DNA of 64,000 bases, from contig NC_088712.1 in the NCBI RefSeq assembly GCF_963576615.1, positions 23,775,870-23,839,869 on the forward strand. The letters are read 5' to 3'. Under the pieces are notes generated by a model that had not been told where the DNA came from, did no database searches, and saw only the letters and a list, made by a program, of their open reading frames with translations. Shown here in pieces: positions 1,976 to 60,235 of this stretch. The DNA is from Watersipora subatra. Its lineage: Eukaryota; Bryozoa; Gymnolaemata; Cheilostomatida; Watersiporidae. A program made the position numbers and the translations under genes. Each line of letters begins with the position of its first letter. Position 1 is the first letter of the stretch.

Positions 1976-3030
1976 GATATTATATTGTCCAGTCCATGAT
2001 TTGCTTAACCTAGCTTTCAGTGTATATATTCGATTCATATCCATTGATCTCTCATTTGTTTGTAGAAAACCAGGGCAGCAAGATGACACTGTGACTTAAA
2101 AGTTGACACTGCATGGATACTCAGAATATTTCAGGTGTCAGATAAAATTTTTGAACTAATAGCGAAGATCGACAGCTGTTATTTAGCATCATACCCAAAA
2201 TTTCCTTTTAGGAGCAAATATTGTGTTGATGACCAATCCTCAGATGCAAAACTTCAAAATGTGTTCATTGATTAATCTGAAAGCTTTTTGTTCGTGGAGT
2301 CAGCATAATGATTTGATTACTCTACCATGATGATGGTTTACTGTTATTATAAATCAGCTTGAGAGTTTGACAGATTTGTAACCACCAAATAGGACCACAT
2401 AATGTGAAATATAGCTGGTACGATGAGAAAAGAGAAAACTTTCAATATGACTAACATGGTGCAATAATAACAAGCATGGCTGTGACAGAAACTTAGTTGT
2501 GTTTGAACAAAACTGAAGTGATTAAAGCCAGTTAATATAAATCATAGACTCAGGACCAAAATGTATCTTATTGAAAGTTTTGGTAAATATTGTCAATTCA
2601 TTAATTTGACTCTATGTGTATTCTCATATATATGTTCTTGTTTATGTTTTATAGATATTCTTGGTCCATATTCTCTTAGAGATACCTTGTGTATATTTTC
2701 ATAGAGAGTATTTGTGTATATTTTTGCAGATACTTTTTTTGTACATTTTCTAGATATTCCTTGTGTATATTTCCATAGATATTCTATCCGTACATTTTTA
2801 TAGAAAATCCTTTGGTATATTTTCAAAGAGGTTTTTAGTGTATGTTTTCATAAAGATTCCTTAGGTATTTGATAAAGATTATTTGTGTATCATTTTATAA
2901 AGAGTCTTTATGCATACTATCATATAAATTTCTTTGTATACTTACTCAGAGACTCCTTCTTTATATTTTCACACAAATTCCTTGGGTATATTTTCAGCAA
3001 AATTAATTGTGTTTATTTCTATAGATTTTC
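1976..3030. repeat. Long repeat R1, copy A, left part
   Basis: Closely similar to 58037-60142 once the Harbinger-like insertion in that copy is removed. For example, the stretch around 2065-2090 (AAACCAGGGCAGCAAGATGA) recurs at 58141-58160. Related but more diverged sequence is at 51580-52200. The copy ends in a 25-bp satellite that is interrupted at 3031 by the Kolobok transposon and resumes at 11117. It has no coding potential that I can see. Confidence 0.8.
2600..3030. repeat. 25-bp satellite array, R1 copy A
   Basis: A diverged tandem array with a period of about 25 bases, built on GTGTATATTTTCATAGA followed by a short GATTCC-like spacer. Roughly 15 imperfect units are seen. The same satellite occurs at 11117-11210, 52190-53530, 53990-54260, 56560-56850 and 59690-60235. 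Kolobok inserted at a TTAA inside this array. Confidence 0.8.
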
Positions 3031-3034
3031 TTAA

Positions 3035-3170
3035 AGAATAGAGAAAGCATAATATTATTATGCTTTATTATTTATCTTGAGGTGTTGAATGGTGTTTTAA
3101 AAAAAGAATCAAGGAGATTGACCAACCAGAAGCTGAGATATAGCCAGCCAAACATAGGTCTACCAAAAAA
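3035..3170 (+). repeat. Kolobok left terminal inverted repeat
   Basis: 136 bases matching the reverse complement of 10977-11112 with about three mismatches. It begins AGAATAGAGAAAGC. Positions 3046-3068 form a near-terminal palindrome (AAAGCATAATA, one T, TATTATGCTTT). Weaker similarity continues inward, for example TGACGTAT followed by AAATCGACTT in both ends. Confidence 0.93.
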
Positions 3171-3531
3171 CATAAGTGTTTTGGTGATCCTCATATTAGC
3201 ATAAAAATATGACGTATGAAATCGACTTGTGTGCCATTGGTCAATCAAGCCAACTAATGCGCGCTCCTATAACAATCACAACGGTTTAATTGGTTTAATC
3301 GTAGAAAGAATAGACTAATCAAATTGGGCCTAACAATCATTGCTCCAAAGATTCCGAACCAGTCCCTCTGACGTGTAGATTAGTTTTAGCATGAAATAAT
3401 TACACGCATCTATGATCTCGCAGTATCTCGCTATCTTGGTAGTCCAGCTCAGTTTCGTTGTTCTCCCACTTGGCTTCCGTGTTCGTACTCGTCGTTAGCG
3501 CAGCTCAGATTTTCTAATTTATACCTGTTAA

Positions 3532-4528
3532 ATGGCTGGTTTTGAGCCTAGAAAGCGTGCTGCTGAGCCTGACAGCGAGGAGCAGGAAGTAAAAAGGAGG
3601 ATCGATATGCGAAATTTGGTAAATATAATGATCAATCTTTCGCTCTGCCTATAAGTTAATATCTATGACCATGTTGTTACATTCAATACTAACGATAAAT
3701 GTATGGTATGCATTTTAATAATCATACATACATGTCATATATATATATATATATATGAGCGCTATCTATCACGAATGTCTAACATCATTGATCGCTATTG
3801 CAAAATATTTAAGTATCACTCCTACCTGAAGGTTTGTTAAAATCAAAGCTGTAGATAGTTGACGGTGCTCTCATTGAGCTTATTGTATAATTGTTTGAGA
3901 CTTGCAGTCCTTTCATCATTCTAGGTCAGTGTTAAGTTTGGCCACATGAAGTGGTGTACGTGTGGCAGCTGTACGCTGCAACCCACCCCGGAAATGAATC
4001 GTTGCTGTTGGAGCCACAAAGGTGCACGGATGAAGATGATGGGGAAGACCTTCCTATGCTTTACTGACAACCCTGCACTAGAGCAGCTGACATCTGAGGC
4101 AGTGCTAGAAAGTGCGTACAACCACTATCTTGCTTTTCATGGTAAGAATAAAAATTACCATCTCATGTTGCATTATAGTTGCAGGTTTCATCATATACCA
4201 AATACATTACTAGTTGTTGGTCTATGTCATAGCATTATGGATGGTCGACTTACCTTTTAATAACAATATAATGTTTGTTTATTCCTTTATTGCAGAAGAC
4301 ATGTTTCCAGAAAACCCAACCCAGGATGATTACAGGCGCAAGGATAGGTTTAGTGCCTACAGATCGATTGTATTTTGGTTGTTCTCAGGCCTAAAGAAAC
4401 GGGACAGACGTGCCCTGCCTGCATGTGTTTATCAGTATGTGAGAAAGAAATTCCCCTTTATTAATAATAATAATGATGACGATGATGAACCTGATTCACT
4501 TTTGTTCAGCAAATTTGTTTCGAGGTGA
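3532..4528 (+). CDS. P2X7-ballast-domain zinc-binding protein, Kolobok accessory gene
   Basis: Three exons, 3532-3618, 3925-4141 and 4296-4528, join in frame to 178 residues with good GTAAAT and GTAAGA donors. Exon 1 starts MAGFEPRKRAAEP and is charged. Exon 2 holds the cysteine cluster: W39, C40, C42, C45, C56, C57, C74 (motif KWCTCGSC, then a CC pair). Exon 3 has SAYRSIVFW and LPACVYQYVRKKFP (C145), then an Asn/Asp-rich tail. This order (WCxCGxC, CC, YR..W, PxCV..IRxxFP) is the intracellular ballast domain of vertebrate P2X7 receptors, also known in invertebrates as small stand-alone proteins. There is no channel or membrane segment, so it is not a receptor. Its position inside the inverted repeats makes it part of the transposon. 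A role in DNA or metal binding during transposition is inference. Domain recognition is strong; function is unknown. Confidence 0.88.
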
Positions 4529-4629
4529 TTATTTTTATATTTATCTCTAGTTTATACATATTTTATGCACACAGATGTTTATATATAAATATATAATCAT
4601 TGTAACCAATCTCAGTCTTTGATGATTCT

Positions 4630-7600
4630 TTATCGCTTCTTAGCCTTTTTCTTTGGGATGATGAGCACCTTGGACGTTGCAGTTTTCTTAACTCTTGATT
4701 TCCTAGCTGTGCCTCTTTTTGTGGTCTTAGCTGCTACCAATATTTTCTTAGCTGCTGCTGAGGTAGCTTTCATCTTCCTGTCAACATGAACAATATCGAT
4801 GCAAATTTCATAATATTCATAGCATGCCATCAGCTCCAGACTGGAATGGACAATCAAACCATGAGCCATCTGGGTTATATTTAACCCGTCCTCCGCCAGA
4901 AAGGAGAAATAAAGCCCTGATGGCCCAATAACCGAACCTTGACATGAACAATATTAGTGCAAATTACATGTCATAGCATGCCATTAGCTACAGACTGGAT
5001 TGTCAGGGATTAACGAACCTTTTCCTATTAGCTTCAGTGGTAGCCATTGTAACATGGTGTGGCTTTCGTATCACTCCCGGTCTGCTCTTCTGTCTTGATA
5101 TTACCTCCTCCCTTGTTAACTGGGATCCTGTCGAGGCTAGTGTTGGTGGTATTATGTCTTCTAGTGGAATAGGCTTTGTTCTGCTTTGCAGGTAGGATTC
5201 GAACTGTAGAAACATCCTGTCTCTGTATGCTGGTAAAAGAAAGCATTTTCCTATGTTAATTGAATAGAACAGTGACCACACCACATATTTCTTAGTAACC
5301 TTATTTCTTATAACCTTCTAAGTTCATATAATTATGAGACCTCGTAAGTGCGGTATGCATAAAGTGGCAATGACCAATGATGTTTCTTTTGGATGAGAAG
5401 AGATTCTCTGGTCTTTTCCCATTGCCCATTTTGAGTTATTGTGGCCATGAACATGTTGAAATATTATACCGATGCAAAACTTTGATAGCCGAAACTCACC
5501 ATATGTTGGTGGCACCCTCAAAGGAATTGAAGTTTGCTGTTGTTTGGTAATCTTCTTTCTAACAATTTGCTGCCTTACAGTCCCATCCTTGTTGATGATG
5601 ACTGGCCGATTGACATCCTCGTTATGGTGCATAACTGTCAATTGAATCCTGTCACACCAAAGAACACAATGATTCATAGAATATTCAGTAAAACACACTG
5701 GCACTGCATATACCACTACGACAACATTAATTTACCATCAACATTTACAGCCATAGTAAAAGCATTTATGAAGCAAAATATGTACAATGATGCAACACCT
5801 TGGAGCAGTAGGTGGGCAATGTTTTGTGTGCCCTGTTTGTGGTTGGACAAGGGCTTGCCTATCTCAACATAGGGCCAAGTCCAGGTTACAGAATAGTATT
5901 TTGTTCATGCATTTACAAACTGCTATGACTGGATGACCTTGAGTCAATATCATACAAACGTGATACCATCCACATTGCTGAATTTACCAACAGATGTCCC
6001 TGTATAGACGGTCAAATAATGCTACACATTTGTGATCTACATACCTTGACTGCATACCAGAGTATGAGAAGTAACTCATCTTTGGTGCATTTCTGTTTAG
6101 TTCGGCATGATAGCTCTCGAGGGCTGCCGTGTCTGCAGAGCTGGCTCTCATCACTGCCTCAAGAATGTCTTTTTTGTGCACCACAGGAGTTAGGGCTTGA
6201 TAAATACCTTTCCACCTAAAACATAGCCATATAAATAAGAATTTGTAGGGTTATTTAAATCATGTGTCTGTTTGACAATGGATTAAATGTGGATAAGAAG
6301 AAATGAATTATTGAGGCAGCTAGACTACCTCACTGTCCTGTGTTATTGATTACCATAAATATGTTATTATATCATATCTGTTAGTTACCTTTGAGCAGCC
6401 AGTCTATTATTTCACCATTACCATCAACACCAGACAAGTCGTCATGCGGACACTCTTTATAGTGCATATTAGCAGGAAACTCGTGGATATCCTATAGCAG
6501 AAGAACAAAATATGTCAATGCTTCAGTTTAATAGCAAGTTAACCAATTGAACACCATCACTGATGATACTGGTATTTTGTGGCCTTCTGCAAGTACGTTC
6601 AGTAAAAGTAATTGTTTTGGCCTACAACAAATTTACCAACCTGTAGATGGGATAAAACACTTTTCCACATTTCTAGACGAAGAGGGGAGTTGAGAGGCGA
6701 AAATTCAGCGCAATGGTACACATGACTGACCACAGGCTTGATCCAGTTGAGAGTTTTTCTCAGCGACACAATCTTACCAATGTCTAGCATTTTAGTCTTT
6801 AGTCCTACAATCGTCAATCAATCATAAAAGTGATTCCATCTGGGTGAATGAAACAAAGCTAAATTAAAGTACCATCACAGTAACCAGCTCCAGTCTAAGC
6901 TTTATGTTTACCTTTTGCAATATGCCAAGGGTCAAATGTATGTGTAATGCTAGGCAAATTCTTGGCTACAAAGGCATTCACAGTTTTGTGCCGGTCCGTG
7001 ACTAACTCTCTTATGCTCAAGCCTGCGTCTAATACCTCTCCATGGCATCTCTTGAGTCCCTCTAATTCCATAGCGTTGGAGCTGGATACCTCTGTTACCT
7101 ACATACATAAAACAACACCAATCCATGTCATGTAGGAAGTTTAAATGCACTGTAGAGTGTGACAATATGCTGTTATTGTCCCCTGAATTACAAATTGTTT
7201 TAACTACCTTTACTAGCTTTGCTGATAGGATGAAGTTCGTCTCACAATCCATCAAGCTATAAAGCCCATATATGGCAGAGTGCCCTGCTGTGTCACACCT
7301 TCCATCTCCTGCCACAACCACAGGTCCCCTCACCGTCTTCCACAGATTAATTTTCATGGCAGAAAATTCATCTCTAATGATCTGAAAAATTTCATACAAT
7401 ATGATTGCTCAAAACATTAATGATACTGGGACATATATTATGACAGCTCAGAGACCAATATAAACGCCTTGTATTTTGATCAGACGATGACTGTGGACAC
7501 AATAACTATATTCCATGTCCATGTATATTATTACATATGGATGTGTTGTATGACAACAGCATTCAAATCAAATTTAGCACATACAATAATATCCATCTCA

Positions 7601-9895
7601 GTATTGGAAACATGTCTAGGTTTTTGGGCGGGTGAGCAACTACACAAATCCACCACACAATTGTGTAGAGCTGTGCTCACAATAACAACTGTGCCAAAGG
7701 GAACACATTCATCAACCCAAGTGCTGTATATATGGTATATAAATATACCCTACCTGGTGCAGATAAGTCCTCTGGTAATAGTGAAGAGTTTGTACCGTCG
7801 GTACACAAACCTTCAGGGAACTGAGAAGCCTTAAAGACTTTGCTGGCAGGGAGCCTGTGAATAGCACTGCAGCAGCTAGAAGAGCATTGATGGATGCAGC
7901 TTTCCCTATCATATCACAAGTTGACCATGTTCTGCAGAGAGACCAACACAAACAATATTATGACGATTTTAGCAACACTGGTTTAGCTTTGGTTGGCGAG
8001 AGATTTTGTGGCGCTACAAGTGTAGCGCCACAAAATCTAAACCAGTGTAGCTATGAAGAAGCGTTTAAACTACAAAATCTAATATTCACAATGACGTGAT
8101 TTCCGCTCCACTAACCTTGTGTGCATGCAAAACTGACAAGTGATGGTGAATGTGAGGGCGGCACCGAGTCTTCTTCCTTCTACATCACAAGACTTGGCAC
8201 ACAACATGCAAACTCCCAGTAACTCCGCCAACTTTCTTACGGACACGATAACTTTTGGCTCATCAAACCAAGTACCTCGGCTAAGAATATAATACATGAG
8301 TTTACGAACTACTATGTGGTGCCAGTGTGTATGGCAATTATAATAGGCAGCTGATATGATGTTGATTAACAATGGTGTAAGTTACCCCTGACTGAACATA
8401 ACCTCTTCTGGATCCTGGTCATCATCTCCACTATCTGGCTCGTAGTCAGGATCATTCCCATCATTATCGGGATCCTCTTCAGACTCACTGGATGAAGGGG
8501 CCACTGAGCTTAACTCATCCTGTGAAAGCAAGAAAATGACAATAGGCCAGCTGAATGAATATAAGCTTAATTTGCAACTGTATATAGGTGTAAGATTACC
8601 TCCTACCTACCTCACTGCCAGTGTCATAGTCAGATGAAAATTCTTCATCTGAAAATCCATCAGATTGATTTGCTGCGAAAAGTGGTGGCGCATCGATTAG
8701 ATTGCACTGTGTTGCAACAGACCGTCTTTTACATCTTCCAAGACGCTTCCCTGTCTGAGTTCCTGATGTAATGAAATAATAGGTCAGGTTTTCAGAACAA
8801 ATGAGTATAGTGTTAGTGTATAGTGTCAGTAGGTGGACTTGCAATCATGAATAAACAACCACATCCCTTAGCATTACATGAGGCATGTTAGTGTGTGTAA
8901 ATGGTATACATAATATTTCGGTTCTATAAGACTCAAAACAGCCATAACAACATTTTGTATGAAGGACTCTTACCTGTGCAGTTACTGCTTGCTGGTAGAG
9001 ATACAGCCTCAGTCTCAGGCTTAGAAAGTGTCACCCCAATTGGAAAAGAGCACCAGGGTTTAGGTTTGACAACATGGAAGGGTTTGATCTTAGGTCTGTG
9101 AAAGAAGGTGTTATAACAATAGGCGTCTACCTCAACTGTACAAATGATAGTTCAGATTGTCAACAAGTAGGAATGACTGGATGCCCTTGTGGTTGTGTAT
9201 TGTTAGTTAGTCGTGATTTTAACAGCTTTATAAAGTTTATTATTGTTCAGGCAAATGATTTATGTCATATAATATTAGTAGTACTTCTCTAGTGTCAGGT
9301 CTCGGATGATAGCCGATCTCTCTCTCTTAGTTAGTTCTGTGTCATCCATGCGCTCAATGACAGATGTAGGAAGGGTGGCCTGCACCTGGATGGTTGGCAG
9401 TGCATCTGGTACTAAATGTGGTCTGATTGGAGATAGAAAACATGGTTAGTGGCGTGTAAAACATTTGTTATGGTTATAATCGGCAGACAAGAAATTGACA
9501 TATCAATCATTCTTACCTTATATTTTCCTGAGGCATCATCACCATCATTTGATAATTAGAAATCATATCAGGTGCAAAATGATTCAAGCAAAGCTGGCTT
9601 GTCTTTGTTCTGACAAAGTTCTTTACCTTAATTCACAGAAAGAGGTGTTACTAGTTTAAATCACATCATAACATGGCCCACAAATATAATTTGCCAGCTC
9701 AAGGAAATCATTGCTAGTGCTGGGGTTAGGTTAACAGACATAGGACGGCTTTTGACATACCTTATCCAACACGAATTTAGTCCATTTATTGGCAACCGCC
9801 TCATTCTTTGGCCAATGAAATAGCCTCTCTGTGTTCTCACAGAGAGCAGCAACACAGTGAGACCGCTTAGACTTCTTAGAGCCATAAGTTGCCAT
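4630..9895 (-). CDS. Kolobok transposase with THAP DNA-binding domain
   Basis: Sixteen exons on - join without a stop to 810 residues: 9895-9761, 9626-9517, 9422-9285, 9095-8974, 8762-8611, 8519-8386, 8280-8116, 7931-7754, 7381-7208, 7098-6912, 6804-6641, 6491-6389, 6207-6045, 5648-5500, 5229-5019, 4777-4630. The N-terminus is a C2CH THAP zinc finger (C14, C19, W38, C58, H61) with an ALPTI box near residue 89. An acidic linker spans about 205-262. The catalytic region has VVVAGDGRCDTAGHSA (D404, D408), SSSNAMELEGLKRC, VTDRHK (D471), FDPWHIAKG (about 491-499), ECPHDD, and ALESYHAELNR (E618), a plausible RNase H-like acidic set. The tail is rich in Lys/Arg. It would cut at the inverted repeats and insert at TTAA. 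All splice phases agree. The last splice uses a weak GTTCGT donor; without it the protein would stop at 5003. Confidence 0.92.
7975..8048. repeat. Perfect long hairpin in a transposase intron
   Basis: Arms 8001-8018 and 8021-8038 are exact reverse complements (AGATTTTGTGGCGCTACA) with a 2-base AG loop. A second pair, ACACTGGTTT at 7975-7984 and AAACCAGTGT at 8039-8048, extends the stem across a 16-base bulge. It lies between the exons ending at 8116 and starting at 7931, in the same intron as the acceptor region. Confidence 0.85.
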
Positions 9896-10489
9896 GGTAT
9901 CAGTGTCCAACAGTATGGTAAGAAGCGTACAATGTTAGTCTAAAAAGATAAGAAATCATTGCTGAGCATGATATTCATTGTGACCAGCAGAAGAATATCA
10001 TTTGGTTTCATTTACATCTCCCAGCAAAGATCAGCAAATTATATATATATATATATAAATCTGGTAACAATGAAATTGCTGGTAACCACTTCAGTCTCAA
10101 GTGTCAAAGCACTTCATACTCAATTTGATTACCATGACCAAAAACTAAATGGATATTGATGATAGTTGGGTTTAGTTCAGTAAGTAATATATTAAATGAT
10201 AATATATGAACTTCAGCATAAGTATCTGCATAGTATTTTCTTCAATCAATCATCAATCGCGATTATCATTTGGAATTTTCTACAAATTATATTAATTACA
10301 TCGTTAATTCTATACAAAGTTATATTATTATTTTGTACAATATGCATTATGATTATATTAATTAATCATAAAAAACAATTATAGATAACATAGACAGAAG
10401 AATCAAATCAAAAGTTGTTTTCTTTTCTTACGACAAGAGCAGCACGGTCAAGTTATTCTTTTCAAAAATATGGATGTAGTGAACTTACA

Positions 10490-10760
10490 GTTTAATTAAC
10501 AGTGACAATAATCCTAAAAATCAACTGAATGCTGCAGTAGGTACAAAGATGAAGAAGGAACAAAGATTTACACCCGCGTGTCTTATTCGACTGGTGAACA
10601 AACTGCGAATAGCGGATATTGTAAATTATAGACCGGCATAGACTATACACGCGCCGTTTGTTCAACAGACGATCTTCGGTGCATATAGAGTTAAAGTTTG
10701 AGGCACAATAATCAAAATATCCTCTTCTGTTTTGACAAATCATGGCAGGGGGTTGTGGGC
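10490..10760 (-). promoter_or_regulatory. Likely 5' untranslated exon and promoter side of the transposase
   Basis: On -, a good donor (CTGTAAGT) follows position 10489 and a good acceptor (TATCTTTTTAG) precedes position 9939, so a leader intron of about 550 bases likely joins this stretch to the exon carrying the transposase start at 9895. It holds an 83-codon open frame that stops before the donor and lacks THAP spacing, so I treat it as leader. The transcription start is not visible. Confidence 0.45.
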
Positions 10761-10976
10761 AGTTGCCTTAACCACACAATGTTTGCTTGATTTTTTTGAG
10801 AAACCAAAGCTAGTCTGTAAATTATTTACTACCGCGAGAAGCGTTTCGCATCTCACAGCCTAAAACAATCAGTATACGCAATGGAGGTAAGGGTGCGCAA
10901 CTCCGGCACATGTCCAATAAGTCGATTTTATACGTCACAACTTTTGGGGTTTTCGAAGGGTTTTTCCTCCGATTCG

Positions 10977-11112
10977 TTTTTAGGTAGACCTATGTTTGGC
11001 TGGCTATATCTCAGCTTCTGGTTGGTCAATCTCCTTGATTCTTTTTTTAAAACACCAGTCAACACCTCAAGATGAATAATAAAGCATAATAATATTATGC
11101 TTTCTCTATTCT
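10977..11112 (-). repeat. Kolobok right terminal inverted repeat
   Basis: Reverse complement of the left end (3035-3170) with about three differences, ending ...CTCTATTCT before the TTAA at 11113-11116. It contains the same 23-base palindrome built on GCATAATA/TATTATGC. Confidence 0.93.
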
Positions 11113-12591
11113 TTAAGTGTATACTTTCATAAAGATTCCTATTGTATATTTTTAGGGAGATTCCTTGTGCATGTTTCCATAGAGGTATTTTGTGTATCTG
11201 GTAGAAAATTAAGGTTTGAATATTCCAGGATGACTAAATTCTATGTTTGATATAAACATAAAAAAGCTATTTCAATATCCATTTACCATTTGGAAAGCTC
11301 AAACCCAGTTTTAAAAAATTCAATGTGTCAGCCTGCCTAAAGTTGACTTGCTGACAAGTCTGCAAAGTATTTGAAAGTTGAGTCTGAATTCCAATTATCA
11401 TAGTGGACAACCACTAATAAATGTGCTAGCAAACATTCATAAACAATTTTGAAGGTCCTATTCAGTTGTCATAATTAACCAATAATCAATAATAATCAAT
11501 AATCAATAATAATCCATTATTTAAGTGATTCTTTAAAGTAAACTCTCACCAGCCTTACAATATCTCCAAAGATTTTAATTAAAATGTCGCCGGATCCCAC
11601 TTCATTTTGTCTCTTTAAAAATTAAGACGGAAAAATAGCACTATTAATAATCCAAACACAATGTTGACCCATAAATCAAGTAATGTATTCAACAATACAT
11701 TGGTATTTTAATATAGCATATTTAATAGGAACATAAAATAATCCATTTCTTTTACTGAATTTTGCAAACTTAACTGAAGATAAGAAAGTAGATTACTTGT
11801 AGACCACCTCTCATCAAAGGTAGTTTAATGTATGCTCCAAATTACAAACAAATTAACATGCAGATAAAAACACCAAATGCGTTCAATACATATCATGAAA
11901 ACACATTGTGCACATTCAAGTATGAATAAATGCATATGGAATATTAATTTTCCTGTCGATTTAAATCAAGATAAACTTATATATGTTCTGTCAATTAAGA
12001 TCATTGACCAAAAATTTTACTGTGCAGAAGTTAGCCTTATTTTTTCTAAATAGGAGAATGGTGAGATGTACTGTAAGCATGCATGTTTACTTTACTATTC
12101 TGCTGCATTAAACCAACACTTCAATTACAATACTCATTTTACATTTCATAGTCGAGGCTGGAGTTTAGGCTCCGTGTTTGACAACTAATTTATCCAACTA
12201 TCAGTCAAATCTGAGGTATTTAAGTTTGAAGATGGCATTCATCATCTGAGCCGTAACAAATAAACAGCTTGATGTTTTTGGGTGGTACTTATTGTTAGTG
12301 TGGTGCTCACATTTCTGTTCCTAAACAAGTTAGCCATACTTATTAGCATGTCTCTGTCAATTGATGGATGTAAGCAGGAATAATCTGACTAACTCATATA
12401 TTTGGCAAATATCTAACAATAAGACCCAGCATGGACTGTCTTAGGATGTATTTAAGGAGATTTTAACAAAACTAACCATTAGGAAACGATAATGGTTTGT
12501 TATGAAAACTAGTACAATAGCAATATACATGTGGTTTGGTATAATATCTTATGTAATACCTGTATGCACAATTATGCCATGTTACAGCAAC

Positions 12592-27748: not shown

Positions 27749-30700
27749 TTATGAGTTCATCTTGTAGAAGATGACCTCATTGCTGCTATATTTAGGAAGG
27801 AGTAAGGTGGAACCTGACACATCTAAGGAGTACACACTACCTCCAGCTTTATCATCATGTGCCATCTGAGAGACTATATTCCCTACAATATATAATAATA
27901 AATACACAGTCAAACTTCCACCTATAAATATTAGCTCTACATGGACACTGCTGTCTCATAAACCGCATTGGCATTGGCTCTCTCATAAACCAATAATAAC
28001 CACTGCACCATGGAATGACACAAGGGCAGGGTAGCAGGTCCTCCCCTAGATTGGTACGAGCAACTCTATATTTATCTCAGGTGCGATAAGAGCTAGGGCT
28101 ATTTTATAACACACAGGACACTCACAAGTGCACTCATAAGTACTTGATTAGGAAGAACAGAGTACAGGATTTCTACAGCAATATAAAATTCATCACTGCT
28201 ATCTTACATAATGATAAGGTACTGATACACACTTTCTTGTTGTTAATATAACTCACTGCTTTAGTAGTTTTCATCTTATTTTTCATTAAAAATTATGACA
28301 AATTCTGTAAAATTTCAGTTTCGCTGTAATAGAATTTCAATAATTTTTTAAAACAGTTTCATTCAAATTTGCCTACAATGTGAACTCAGACTACCTTTTG
28401 CGAGAGCTCAGTCTATCAACCAATTTTGCTAGTCATATTTCAACTATGCAAATATTTGGCATGCTTCCTTATAACCATGTACACAATTTAACTATAATGT
28501 ATTCCTGCATAATATCAATACATATTATAATAACCCTGCATCATGCTAATAACTAACCTGTAGTAGAATTAATAATGCATATAGTCTTGTTGCTGTGTTC
28601 AGCCAGTAGAACATATTCTCCATGGCTGACCAGCGCATCAGGCTTCTCCACTTCCGTGAGAGTCCACATGACTTTACGGGTGGCCGTGTCTATTTTAAAT
28701 ACTTTGGAATGGCTGAAGGATGATAAGATGAGAGATGAGCTATCAGGGGCGCACATGGTGACAGGGCTGCTACCAGTGAGAGGACAGGGAATATGATGTA
28801 GAACCTGACCATCTAAGGAGTAGGTAGTGATCCTGCTGTTGGGTGGGTCAGCGATAAGTACCTTGTCTTTAATTATCACCAGCATGTCAGAGTAGGAGCG
28901 ATGATACGGATGCTCCCAGCTGGTGATGAGTTCCCCTTCCATGCTGTAGACACTGACTGTAAGAGGACTAGTATCAGACAGTGTGTAGAGCCTGTCCTTG
29001 TAGCAAGTGATAGACTCTACTGAACCGGAGGTTGAGATGAACTTGTTGGTGATGTTATTATCAATGTCTACTCTGCTGACTGTGTTATCCAGTAGTCCAA
29101 TATAAGTGTTACCCTTATAGTGGCAGATGGAGAGGGGACCGGATGGCAGTTGTATGCTGGACAGTCTGGTGAGTGACTTGGGGAGTTGAACAGGTGGAGC
29201 TTTTTGTTCTTCAACGATGATATCATGAGAGGAGGTAACTTCTAACTCAATATCTCTTCTCTCACCTGTAGAATATAGAGTGTACATGTGAGTAGCAACA
29301 GTTATTAACTATTTTATACAGAAATATTGCACTTGAAAGAAAATATATTAGCTCCTAGAAGTCAGGATTACAGTTTTATCATCATCTTCACATTCCTCTG
29401 TAGGTAATATTTAAGTCATTTTTATTAAGATTACATTTTTTCTGAGCGATACGAGAGCATTGAAAAACAATTATTTTACACAATGAAAACACTCAGAGTC
29501 AGTCAATATGACAGCGCTGCCATACAATGATGTACAACTATAAACTAATAATTAGTTATATAATACTAATATTAACTGCTATCAGCAGTGTCCAATATTA
29601 AGCATTGTTATAATGATTACTTGGAAGCATGCCAACCTGGCTTTTTTTACCCAGCTATTTCTCACCTAAACACCAAACTGTTAACTATTGATATGGCTAA
29701 AGGTGCTCTATCATTCCATGTAACAATGATAATTATTATGTGAATATGTTGATGGCAGCTCATACAGTAGGACCTGGTTAGGCAACATAGAGTATAAAAT
29801 ACACTGAGACTGCACATTATTGACAATAAAATCACATAACTCAGGGAACTACTGCATACACTATATTTTAAACAGTGGATCTGAGGCTAACTGATCATTT
29901 TTAGCAACAGACTAACTTTTCTATCAATTTGTAACCAAAACACAGGGTTATTAATTATTAATATGGTTTATGACTGAAGAGTCTATAAATATCAGACATA
30001 AAGTAGTGGTTCATCATACCCAGTATTTGACCCTATTTCCCAGAGGTTATGTTGCAGACCCCTTATAAAACAGGAATTTACCTCAAAATTGAAAATAGGG
30101 TTTGGTTAAGGAAGAGCTGTAATTTCAACCCTTCAGAACATTTAAGCGGATTCCTAAACTCTCACAATTACTATACATATAAATACATGTACGCGTCCCT
30201 CATTGTACATGCAGTACACTTGTATAGTAAAATGCATATGAAGGGATCAATAAAGGGCAGTTCACACTAAATCAGTGTATGACATAGTGAAGGCATCATA
30301 GAATGATGAATTTACTAAGGATATGTCAGAAACAATTGCAGCTGTCAATGTTGCCCCATATTTTGCTAAGCATCTATGACAGCCTGCAACATGTGCAACA
30401 ATCACTGTTCAGCATTAACACTGATTGACTGTCACGGATTGTGTAGTCTACAGTATAGTTACTGTAGGACTAGTATTTCATAACTTCAGCCACTACATTG
30501 TGTAATATGAACATTATGTCAGGGAATATTCATGTTGATGTAAATACTGAAGTTCTAGAGAAAGTGTGAATAATGTTACAGCAAATAATCACCATGTAGT
30601 GTGGGATTAACACAGACATACTGTGATACAGTGTGAACCATTTCATCGCTAATAGCCTGTGATGCTGTCGTCGATGCTCTGCGACTTATATGGAAATCAG

Positions 30701-49040: not shown

Positions 49041-50076
49041 AAAATAAAAAAAAATTGTTTCCTCACCCCGGATACCCCGTATGGGTGGTAAATTCTGCTC
49101 TAACTCGGGTCTCCTACCAGAGACCTGGGAGTTTGAGCACTCGTCTCAAGATCTTAGCTGTTCCCAATAGCGCACTTTTCTGCAACTCACCTGAGTTGAT
49201 TGTTGTTGGTATTTGGGCAAGCCACATTTTATGCGCCGGTGTTATTGCGCCCAGTGCCCCAATCACTACTGGAATTACGGTTGTTCTTACATTCCAGCAT
49301 TTTTCAATTTCTTCTCCAAGAGGGAGATATTTTTCTACCTTTTCTTTTTCTTTGCTGGCTATATTGTAGTCATTGGGTACTGCTATATCTATTATAGTAG
49401 CCCTCTTGTTCTCCTTGTCTACCACCACTATATCTGGTTGGTTTGCTAGGACATGCTTGTCAGTTTGGATGTAGAAGTCCCAGAGGATCTTAGCGCGGTC
49501 ATTTTCATTGACCTTACCAGGAGCTTCCCACCAGTGTTGTGGTTTATTAAGGCCATACTCATCACATAGACTTCTATACACAATACCTGCGACATGATTA
49601 TGCTGCTCAGTGTATGCGTTCCCTACTAGCTGTCTGCATCCACTGATGATGTGTTGGATGGTCTCAGGTGCATCTTTGCACAGTCTGCATCTAGGATCGT
49701 CTCTAGTGTGATAGATTTTCGTTTGGAGTTGCCTTGTTGGGAGCACTTGCTCCTGGGCTGCCATGATTAGCGACTCTGTATTGGCCGTTAGGTTTCCTTT
49801 GTTCAGCCACATATATGTCTGGTGAAGGTCGCCACCCTTAGATATTTGTTGGTGGTAAGCACCATGAAGAGGTTTCGTATGCCAGTCAATTTCCTCATCA
49901 TCAGGGCATAGGTCCGTTGTGAGAGCAGCCGATTGAAATTCAGCTAGCAAATTATCTGAGATGGCCATGGAGGCTGCATATGCTTTGATGCTTCGCTCCT
50001 CCTCTTTCACTGTCTGCTGTACACTTTTGAGTCCCCTACCGCCATCTTTCCTATCAAGATACAATCTAATAGTATC

Positions 50077-50080
<4 letters not shown>
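49041..50080 (-). mobile_element. 5'-truncated RLE-type non-LTR retrotransposon
   Basis: The 3' portion of a LINE on - with a short 3' untranslated region (49041-49113) ending in a T/A-rich tail. It lacks the main reverse transcriptase motifs, starting after them at about 50080. (TA)n tracts border it on both sides, so it probably inserted in an AT microsatellite. Confidence 0.85.
49114..50076 (-). pseudogene. C-terminal part of RLE LINE polyprotein (zinc knuckle and endonuclease)
   Basis: An open frame of about 320 residues (the first ~4 precede 50064). It starts in the tail of the reverse transcriptase thumb (RLYLDRKDGGRGL). A CCHC knuckle follows: C126, C129, H138, C143 (counting from the codon at 50064; CRLC then ETIQHIISGC). 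Next is a restriction-like endonuclease core: ILWDFYIQTD, PDIVVVD (D211), TIIDIAVP (D226) and the lysine-rich KEKEKVEKY. This order is the C-terminal half of R2/R4/NeSL-type elements. It is open to its natural stop but lacks the rest of the protein, so it is a dead 5' truncation and not a functional gene. The clade cannot be fixed without the missing reverse transcriptase. Confidence 0.9.
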
Positions 50081-50109
<29 letters not shown>

Positions 50110-50170
50110 TATATATATATATATAGATATATATATATATATATATTTATATATTTATATATATATATAT
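50079..50170. repeat. (TA)n microsatellite, 5' flank of the LINE
   Basis: About 90 bases of AT dinucleotides with a few GATA/TTTA interruptions, directly abutting the truncated 5' side of the LINE. Confidence 0.92.
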
Positions 50171-52189: not shown

Positions 52190-53530
52190 CATTAGTCTGA
52201 TCTTATGTATATTTTCATTCAGATATTCTTGTGTACCTTTCATAGATAAATAATCCTTGTGTATAATTTCATAGAGATCTCATGTGTATATTTTTATAAA
52301 GATTGATTGTATATACTGTCATGGAGACTCATTGTGTATATTTTCAAATAGTTTTGGTGTGTATTTTCATAGCATTTTTGTAAATATTAGATTTATATAG
52401 CGGTTCAATGTGTATACATTTAGAGAGGATTATTGTGTATATTTTTATAGATATTATTTGGGTATATTCTCATAGATATTACTCATGAATATTTTAAAGA
52501 AGATTTTTTGTGTATATTTTCATAGAAGTTCCTCGAGTATAATTATTTCTTTAGATATTCCTCATGTATATTTCCATAGAGGACCTTGAGTATATTTTAA
52601 TAGAGGGTCCTTGTGCATATTTTCATAGATATTCTGTCGTGTGTATTTTCATGGAGATTCCTTGTGCATATTCTGATAAAGATTTCTGGTAAATAATTTC
52701 ATAGAGTTTACCTGTGTGTATTTTCAAAGAATTTCATTGTGTATAACTCTATATAGATTGTTTGCATATATTTCTATAGATGAGTGTTATGTATATTCCC
52801 ACGGATATTCTTCACTCACATTTTTTATAGATGACCGTACAGTATTCTTCTATAGAGGTTTATTGTCTATACTTTCATAGACATTCCTTGAGTATATTTT
52901 CATAGCAGCTCATTATCCATATTTTTAAATAAAATAACTGTCTATAGTTTCATAAAGGTTTCTAGTGTATGTTTCATGTTTCCATAGTTTCCTTGTGTAT
53001 ATTTTTATATAAGTTATTTGTAGGTAACTTAAAAAGAGATTTTGTGTATTTTCATATCAAATTATTGTGTATATTTTCTTAGAAATCCTGTCTTTATAAT
53101 GTTATATAGGTTTGATGTGTATATTTCTATAGAAGATGGTTACGTATGTTTTTATTCATATTCATCATGTATATTTTTATAGAGTACCGTTGTGTATGTT
53201 TTCATTGAAGTTCCTTGTGAATATTTTGATATAGATTATTTGTATATATTTTCATAGACATTCCTTGTGTGTATTTTTATAGATATTCCTTGTGGAAACT
53301 TTCAAAAAAATTTATTTGTATATTTTCATAGATATTCCTTGAGTATATGCACATATATATTCTGTGTGCATATTTTGCTAGAATTCTCTTTTGTATATCT
53401 TTATAGAGACATGTGTTTATATTGTGTATACTTTTAAATCGATTCATTGTCTATATATTTACTGAGATTCCTCGTGTATAATTCTATAGTGGTTGTTTGT
53501 GTATATTTTTGAAGAGATTTCATGGACATC
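52190..53530. repeat. Large 25-bp satellite array
   Basis: About 50 imperfect 25-bp units based on TGTATATTTTCATAGA plus a GATTCC-like spacer. It is the longest of the arrays in the window. Units are diverged and some are longer or shorter by a few bases. Confidence 0.88.
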
Positions 53531-59689: not shown

Positions 59690-60235
59690 TTAATCTGACC
59701 CTATGTGTACTCTCATATAGATGTTCTTGTTTATGTTTTAAAGAGATGCTTGGTCCATATTTTCTCAGAGATACCTTGTGTATAGTTTCATAAAGATTAT
59801 TTACGTATATTTTATAGAGGTTATTTGTGTATATGCTTGCAGATATCTTGTTGGAAGTTTTTCTAGAGACTCTTTGTGTATATTTTCCTAGATATTCTAT
59901 CCGTACCATTTTATAGAAAGTCCTTGGGTATATTTTCAAATCGGTTCCTGGTGTATATTTTCAAAGAGATTCCTTAGGTATTTTTATAGAGATTATTTGT
60001 GAATTTTTATAAAGATTATTTATGCATACTATCATATAGATTCCTGTATATTCTTATACAGAGATTCCTTCTGTATATTTTCACACAAATTCCTTGGGTA
60101 TAATTTCATCAAGATTCATTGTGTATATTCTCATAGACTTTATTAAGTGTATACTTTCATAAAGATTCTTATTGTATATTTTCAGGGAGACTCCTTGTGC
60201 ATGTTTCCATAGATGTATTTTGTGTATCTAGTAGA
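59690..60235. repeat. 25-bp satellite array, R1 copy D
   Basis: About twenty units, matching 2600-3030 plus 11117-11210. The equivalent of the Kolobok target lies at 60143-60150 (ATTAAGTG) and is uninterrupted. Confidence 0.85.

Follow-up and report, generated by a model that had tools for sequence, protein, structure and literature searches.

Does a gene for the ballast domain of the P2X7 receptor, lying beside a transposase between the ends of a DNA transposon, record a chance capture, or does it belong to such elements, and what would it do there? P2X7 is a much-studied immune receptor, and we know of no agreed role for its tail. The role of the transposon gene, KolX, might reveal that of the ballast in P2X7. 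The locus lies in a 64,000-nucleotide stretch of DNA (the window), and a preliminary description saw in it a three-exon plus-strand gene with the motif order of the P2X7 ballast, enclosed by TTAA-flanked inverted repeats of 136 bp, in an element that also encodes a THAP transposase. These points are borne out by the present analysis (Table 1), the repeats measuring 137 bp with TTAA on both sides.

The link between this kind of transposon and P2X7 has been in print since 2022. According to Kojima and Bao (2022; PMC9587614), the KolX protein of Kol0, a lineage of Kolobok transposons, matches P2X7 residues 476–595, stand-alone ballast proteins had previously not been recognised as Kolobok parts, and P2X7 originated when a P2X4-like gene was fused to KolX. 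The capture of the ballast had been described earlier, with no link to transposons, by Rump et al. (2020; PMC7016195). The suggestion in the preliminary description that the stand-alone family may be a Kolobok accessory protein, and the receptor domain of transposon origin, is supported here and had been published by Kojima and Bao (2022; PMC9587614). What the present genome adds is independent confirmation with numbers; it also supplies two near-identical full-length copies in which the KolX frame is uninterrupted, and it points to a candidate donor sub-lineage.

In the window sequence the element body spans positions 3035–11112 (8,078 bp) and is bounded by copies of TTAA; its first letters are AGAATAGAG and its last letters CTCTATTCT. 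The inverted repeats were found as 142-nt segments (3030–3171 and 10976–11117) that are 98% complementary, and they come to 137 bp once TTAA and one flanking base are subtracted. When the flanks are joined, a 25-bp minisatellite (TGTATATTTTCATAGAGATTCCTTG) is back in register with a single TTAA, and thus the insertion is clean; the element inserted into a TTAA inside this minisatellite. Arrays of the same minisatellite are found at 2615–2996 and, twice more beyond the insertion site, at 53170–53348 and 59713–60213. Elsewhere in the window, a minus-strand frame of 346 aa (49114–50154) matches zf-RVT weakly, at E 6.7e-5 and short of the cut-off, and is likely the end of a non-LTR retrotransposon, with similar frames at positions 488–1566 of locus L023; another minus-strand frame of 251 aa (28553–29308) has by impression the look of a repeat propeller, with no Pfam match at E 0.01.

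Table 1. Features of the KolX-bearing element, in window coordinates
Feature	Position	Strand	Basis
TTAA target-site copy, left	3031..3034	.	sequence; joined flanks
Left terminal inverted repeat, 5'-AG	3035..3171	+	98% complementary to 10976-11112
KolX exon 1, N-terminal part	3532..3618	+	splice model; shared by five of the six other family A copies
KolX exon 2: WCTCGSC, CC and C zinc-cysteine clusters	3925..4141	+	splice model, Pfam, alignment
KolX exon 3: AYRSIVFW and LPAC motifs, stop codon	4296..4530	+	splice model, Pfam, alignment
Transposase exon 16, lysine-rich tail	4630..4777	-	splice model; tblastn match in L009, L010, L011, partly L014
Transposase exons 1-15: THAP domain, GDGR, VTDRH, FDPWH, LESYH	5019..9895 (9895 down to 5019)	-	splice model, Pfam
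Transposase exon 13, LESYH (candidate catalytic E)	6045..6207	-	splice model; role inferred
Transposase exon 10, VTDRH (candidate second D) and FDPWH (C/DxxH signature)	6912..7098	-	splice model; signature per PMC9587614
Transposase exon 9, GDGR (candidate first catalytic D)	7208..7381	-	splice model
Transposase exon 1, first half of THAP zinc finger	9761..9895	-	splice model, Pfam
Right terminal inverted repeat, ends CT-3'	10976..11112	-	inverted-repeat search
TTAA target-site copy, right	11113..11116	.	sequence; joined flanks

The KolX gene is modelled as three exons encoding 178 aa. The protein is matched by Pfam P2RX7_C (PF20478; E 1.7e-11, above cut-off) and by P2X7 chains in the PDB (best E 3.1e-5); Pfam sees P2RX7_C alone in the model, and a P2X channel domain fused to the ballast is absent. 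When three KolX types (window, L026, and L022) are aligned with two P2X7 chains, all five sequences agree at the seven zinc-ligand cysteines, in the AYR core, and at one glycine and three prolines. They also agree at R119 and R151 of window KolX, the equivalents of R546 and R578. These two belong to the five residues that contact GDP in rat P2X7, namely R546, H547, R574, R578, and K583 (Rump et al., 2020; PMC7016195). The equivalents of the other three are missing from window KolX, and stand-alone proteins outside deuterostomes likewise keep two of the five contacts (Rump et al., 2020; PMC7016195). The exon borders of this gene model and of the transposase model were drawn from splice consensus and reading frame rather than from RNA, and several donors are weak.

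The transposase on the minus strand is a 16-exon model of 810 aa, free of internal stops, in which THAP is matched at E 5.5e-8 and Mutator-like transposase at E 9.2e-8, above the Pfam cut-off in each case; exons scanned singly gave weak matches only (THAP 0.064). Its weak points are the donors of exons 3, 7, 11, and 15 and the acceptor of exon 13. The weak donor of exon 15 is the partner of exon 16, without which the protein would stop in exon 15. The motifs GDGR, VTDRH, FDPWH, and LESYH occur in this order and, together with the Mutator-like match, point to a transposase of the DDE type, the catalytic roles of the motifs being taken from the superfamily description. The GDGR of exon 9 is presumably the first catalytic D of the DDE core. 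No nuclease was identified when ten minus-strand frames and the two gene models were scanned with Pfam.

Kolobok termini are defined as 5'-RR and YY-3' (Kojima and Bao, 2022; PMC9587614), and those of the window element read AG...CT. The TTAA duplication of the superfamily is present in the window element, with TTAA also at L009, L017, L018, and L020, and the feature that marks the Kol0 lineage, a KolX with the P2X7 ballast cysteines, is present as well. The element is, with little doubt, a full-length and probably young Kolobok member with a KolX gene, and of the Kol0 type as judged by gene content.

Other copies of the window element's family (family A) show how KolX has fared. A second full-length copy, L009, is 98.1% identical across the 8,078 bp, measures 8,159 bp between its TTAA copies, and differs from window KolX by one replacement. 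L011 is a 3.3-kb deletion copy that has kept the inverted repeats and TTAA, with a KolX gene interrupted by a stop, and L010, L012, L013, and L014 are rearranged or decayed. Among the seven family A copies read, an unbroken KolX frame is found only in the window and in L009. Counted with stop codons and gaps dropped, and mostly in pairs that contain a dead copy, dN/dS of family A KolX is below 1 in all 20 defined pairs, the window–L009 pair being undefined: it ranges from 0.09 to 0.49 in the nine defined pairs among the window, L009, L010, L011, and L012, and from 0.31 to 0.65 in the 11 pairs that involve L013 or L014. Constraint is weak in the KolX of group b (pairs 0.31–1.34; pooled pN/pS 0.63), and in L016, of family c, a stop falls at the first Trp of the ballast domain.

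How the two convergent genes, transposase on the minus strand and KolX on the plus strand, would work together can be proposed from their domains. The THAP zinc finger would bind the long inverted repeats, and the DDE core would cut and join DNA. KolX, with its seven zinc-ligand cysteines of the P2X7 type, would adopt a fold stabilised by zinc and, through it, bind either the transposase or the protein–DNA complex. We lean toward KolX being an accessory protein that aids transposition and is kept by selection, a reading based on sequence comparison. Against this stands the idea that KolX regulates the element or its host, for instance as a repressor or an early zygotic expression factor, and is kept for the survival of the element and not for its movement. 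KolX sequence is retained without the transposase core in the deletion copies L011, L017, and L018, which speaks for such regulation and counts against the main reading; the retention fits some role for KolX, but these copies could also carry it passively. The broken KolX frames of the five other family A copies, the stop in L016, and the weak constraint in group b likewise count against the main reading. Regulation is also favoured by Nanor, a likely product of KolX domestication, whose expression falls at the midblastula transition and for which a role in transcription has been proposed (Rump et al., 2020, PMC7016195; Kojima and Bao, 2022, PMC9587614). We regard a regulatory function as possible and the less likely of the two.

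Whether KolX accompanies Kolobok transposases in general was addressed in the window's own 783.7-Mb genome. Of 152 matches to a ballast query, 150 were merged to at least 131 loci, a lower bound because 150 of 1,223 first-look candidates were scored. Transposase positions were obtained with queries from three families (A, b, and g), for which 42 of 102, 150 of 151, and 134 of 180 matches, respectively, were entered; those omitted are mainly further exons of elements already represented and, for g, matches beyond those listed. Omissions of this kind could only make the pairing count too low. Letters were assigned to the ballast groups from the part of the query matched (query span), from identity, and from the length of the frame; for group e, position also entered into the label. 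The pairing within 10 kb proposed in the preliminary description was found for 56 of the 131 listed ballast loci, against 145 of 20,000 random places drawn on nine contigs of known length, and did not extend to the other 75, which have no listed transposase match within that distance. The two genes lie on opposite strands in 55 of the 56 pairs, the sole same-strand pair being one half of a 3.2-kb palindrome (L022). Among the listed loci, pairing was seen in groups A (7/10), b (14/20), c (19/38), d (8/15), and g (8/12), and in none of groups e (0/27), x (0/7), and p (0/2). Five element families pair a ballast gene with a transposase, and the association is not a one-off.

From the side of the transposase, a listed ballast locus lies no more than 10 kb away for 55 of 221 listed clusters. 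The remaining 166, many of which came from the group b query, have no such neighbour among the listed ballast loci, themselves a lower bound, and could mean that there are Kolobok families without KolX. A further Kolobok-like transposase family, with 136-aa frames in many copies (e.g., C7:47473059, C2:52543276, and C5:21095994), is 32–38% identical to family g and paired with no listed ballast locus; it is perhaps a Kolobok without KolX. Two local arrangements were also observed. Three group g elements in the same orientation lie at an exact spacing of 8,905 bp (C9:16086068, 16094973, and 16103878), like a tandem triplication, and L022 (C5:46344000-46353900) contains a 3,231-bp inverted repeat of 99.97% identity with a ballast gene in each arm, either a recent palindrome or an assembly artefact. 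When viral contigs were scanned with the ballast alignment, 14 sequences matched the pattern, and none was confirmed as a relative.

Several unpaired loci carry marks of transposons. L017 and L018 (group c) have been reduced by deletion to 4.94 kb; each retains part of a THAP domain, and their TTAA-flanked ends match perfectly over 18 bases. L021 (group b) has imperfect TTAA-flanked ends (14/18) 3.26 kb apart and retains part of the C-terminus of a Kolobok transposase; these three are deletion copies with TTAA ends. In L019 (group b) both group b end motifs are present, one of them without TTAA. L028 (group p) holds a piggyBac-type transposase piece (DDE_Tnp_1_7, 2.6e-14) and, at C10:35.67 Mb (positions 2613–4562 and 7706–9951 of the locus), tandem arrays of 477/478-bp units in which a C-terminal exon of KolX recurs about every 477 bp. 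A few piggyBac families encode a protein resembling the KolX C-terminus (Kojima and Bao, 2022; PMC9587614), and L028 is similar in having a piggyBac-type piece near repeated KolX C-terminal exons, which may be unrelated to its piggyBac copy; the window element itself is not a piggyBac.

The loci of groups e and x might instead be domesticated ballast genes of the host and not transposon copies, given that none of the 27 and seven loci, respectively, is paired with a listed transposase match and that 25 of the 27 group e loci are clustered at C6 22.5–26.7 Mb, in a group whose label is partly positional. L027, the single group e locus that was read, combines an in-frame stop with the intron shared among KolX genes and a weak TTAA-flanked inverted repeat (14/18) spanning 2,602 bp, and looks more like a dead, deleted element. 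We consider domestication of these groups rather doubtful.

The intron of L027 is part of a wider pattern. A splice donor in phase 1 after (F/Y)-H is present in five of six ballast types, namely A (TTTCATG|GTAAGA), c (TACCATG|GTAAGC), d (TATCATA|GTGAGT), e (TATCATG|GTAAGT), and g (TACCATG|GTGTGT), with acceptors traced in types A and e. It is absent from group b, in which the frame is open through the entire ballast domain, and the same search gave no (F/Y)-H donor match in the decayed family A copy L013. In P2X7, the ballast region is encoded in exon 13 (Rump et al., 2020; PMC7016195). Because types A, c, d, e, and g share this donor, their KolX genes appear to descend from one ancestor, and the pattern suggests that P2X7 and group b either belong together or lost the intron independently. 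That a host ballast gene was taken once by a single Kolobok element with no general tie, the outcome that the preliminary description held would refute it, is most improbable, being rejected by the genome census and contradicted in this genome by the other families: the 75 unpaired loci speak for it, but L017, L018, and L021 among them are deletion copies with TTAA ends, the ballast gene lies opposite the transposase strand in five element families, the (F/Y)-H intron is common to five ballast types, L009 is a second full-length copy, and KolX has been described as part of the Kol0 lineage (Kojima and Bao, 2022; PMC9587614).

The same comparison bears on the source of the P2X7 ballast. Group b and P2X7 have in common the lack of the (F/Y)-H intron. 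Group b (L022) also agrees with P2X7 at the H547 position and, like it, has PSC instead of PAC and the motif P-x5-Y-x-GFK at the C-terminus. In a seven-row tree, from which four rows of a first, 11-row tree were dropped (d, the piggyBac piece, one b, and one P2X7), P2X7 joins b with 91/92, a branch that is not starred; both trees have few rows and long branches (128 columns in the first and 129 in the second), and no starred branch bears on P2X7. Forcing P2X7 with A, e, g, or c alone gave AU p values of 0.046, 0.044, 0.015, and 0.016, for clades picked after the first tree, and the idea of a donor was formed on the same data. As a tentative proposal, which we hold to be rather less than an even chance, KolX comprises at least two old sub-lineages, one intron-bearing (A, c, d, e, and g) and one intronless (b), and the intronless one was the source of the P2X7 ballast, which vertebrates encode in a single exon. 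If true, this would name the donor branch, which is not named in the part of Kojima and Bao (2022; PMC9587614) cited here.

The window's genome also contains P2X genes. PF00864 gave 16 matches at about twelve P2X loci, eight of which are nearly full-length in single open frames of 408–454 aa. At C8:54.0-54.4 Mb, C6:30.2 Mb, and other places, almost the entire P2X domain is contained in single frames of 408–483 aa, and these genes are apparently intronless. A P2X–ballast fusion was not found when 14 of the 16 P2X matches were compared with the 131 listed ballast loci, the two left out being short further pieces of loci already compared; the nearest lie 1,425,368 bases (1.43 Mb) apart. The genome holds P2X and ballast genes, unfused among the listed loci.

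In comparison with known systems, the window element has in common with Kolobok Kol0 elements of the Kolobok-1_XT type (Kojima and Bao, 2022; PMC9587614) the TTAA duplication, the 5'-RR/YY-3' ends, a putative DDE transposase, and KolX, and is distinguished by its 16-exon transposase model and 137-bp inverted repeats. Its KolX has in common with the P2X7 ballast (PDB 6u9v and others; PF20478) all seven cysteines that serve as zinc ligands, the counterparts of R546 and R578, and the AYRS core, and differs from P2X7 in having no channel domain and in an intron that splits the ballast domain. Stand-alone ZCD/Nanor-like proteins (PANTHER PTHR36981; Rump et al., 2020, PMC7016195) resemble KolX in being short, in the C-terminal position of the ballast, and in the conserved residues. 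Whereas Rump et al. (2020; PMC7016195) reported one or few (<10) such genes per species, the present genome contains at least 131 ballast loci, many of them with transposon features.
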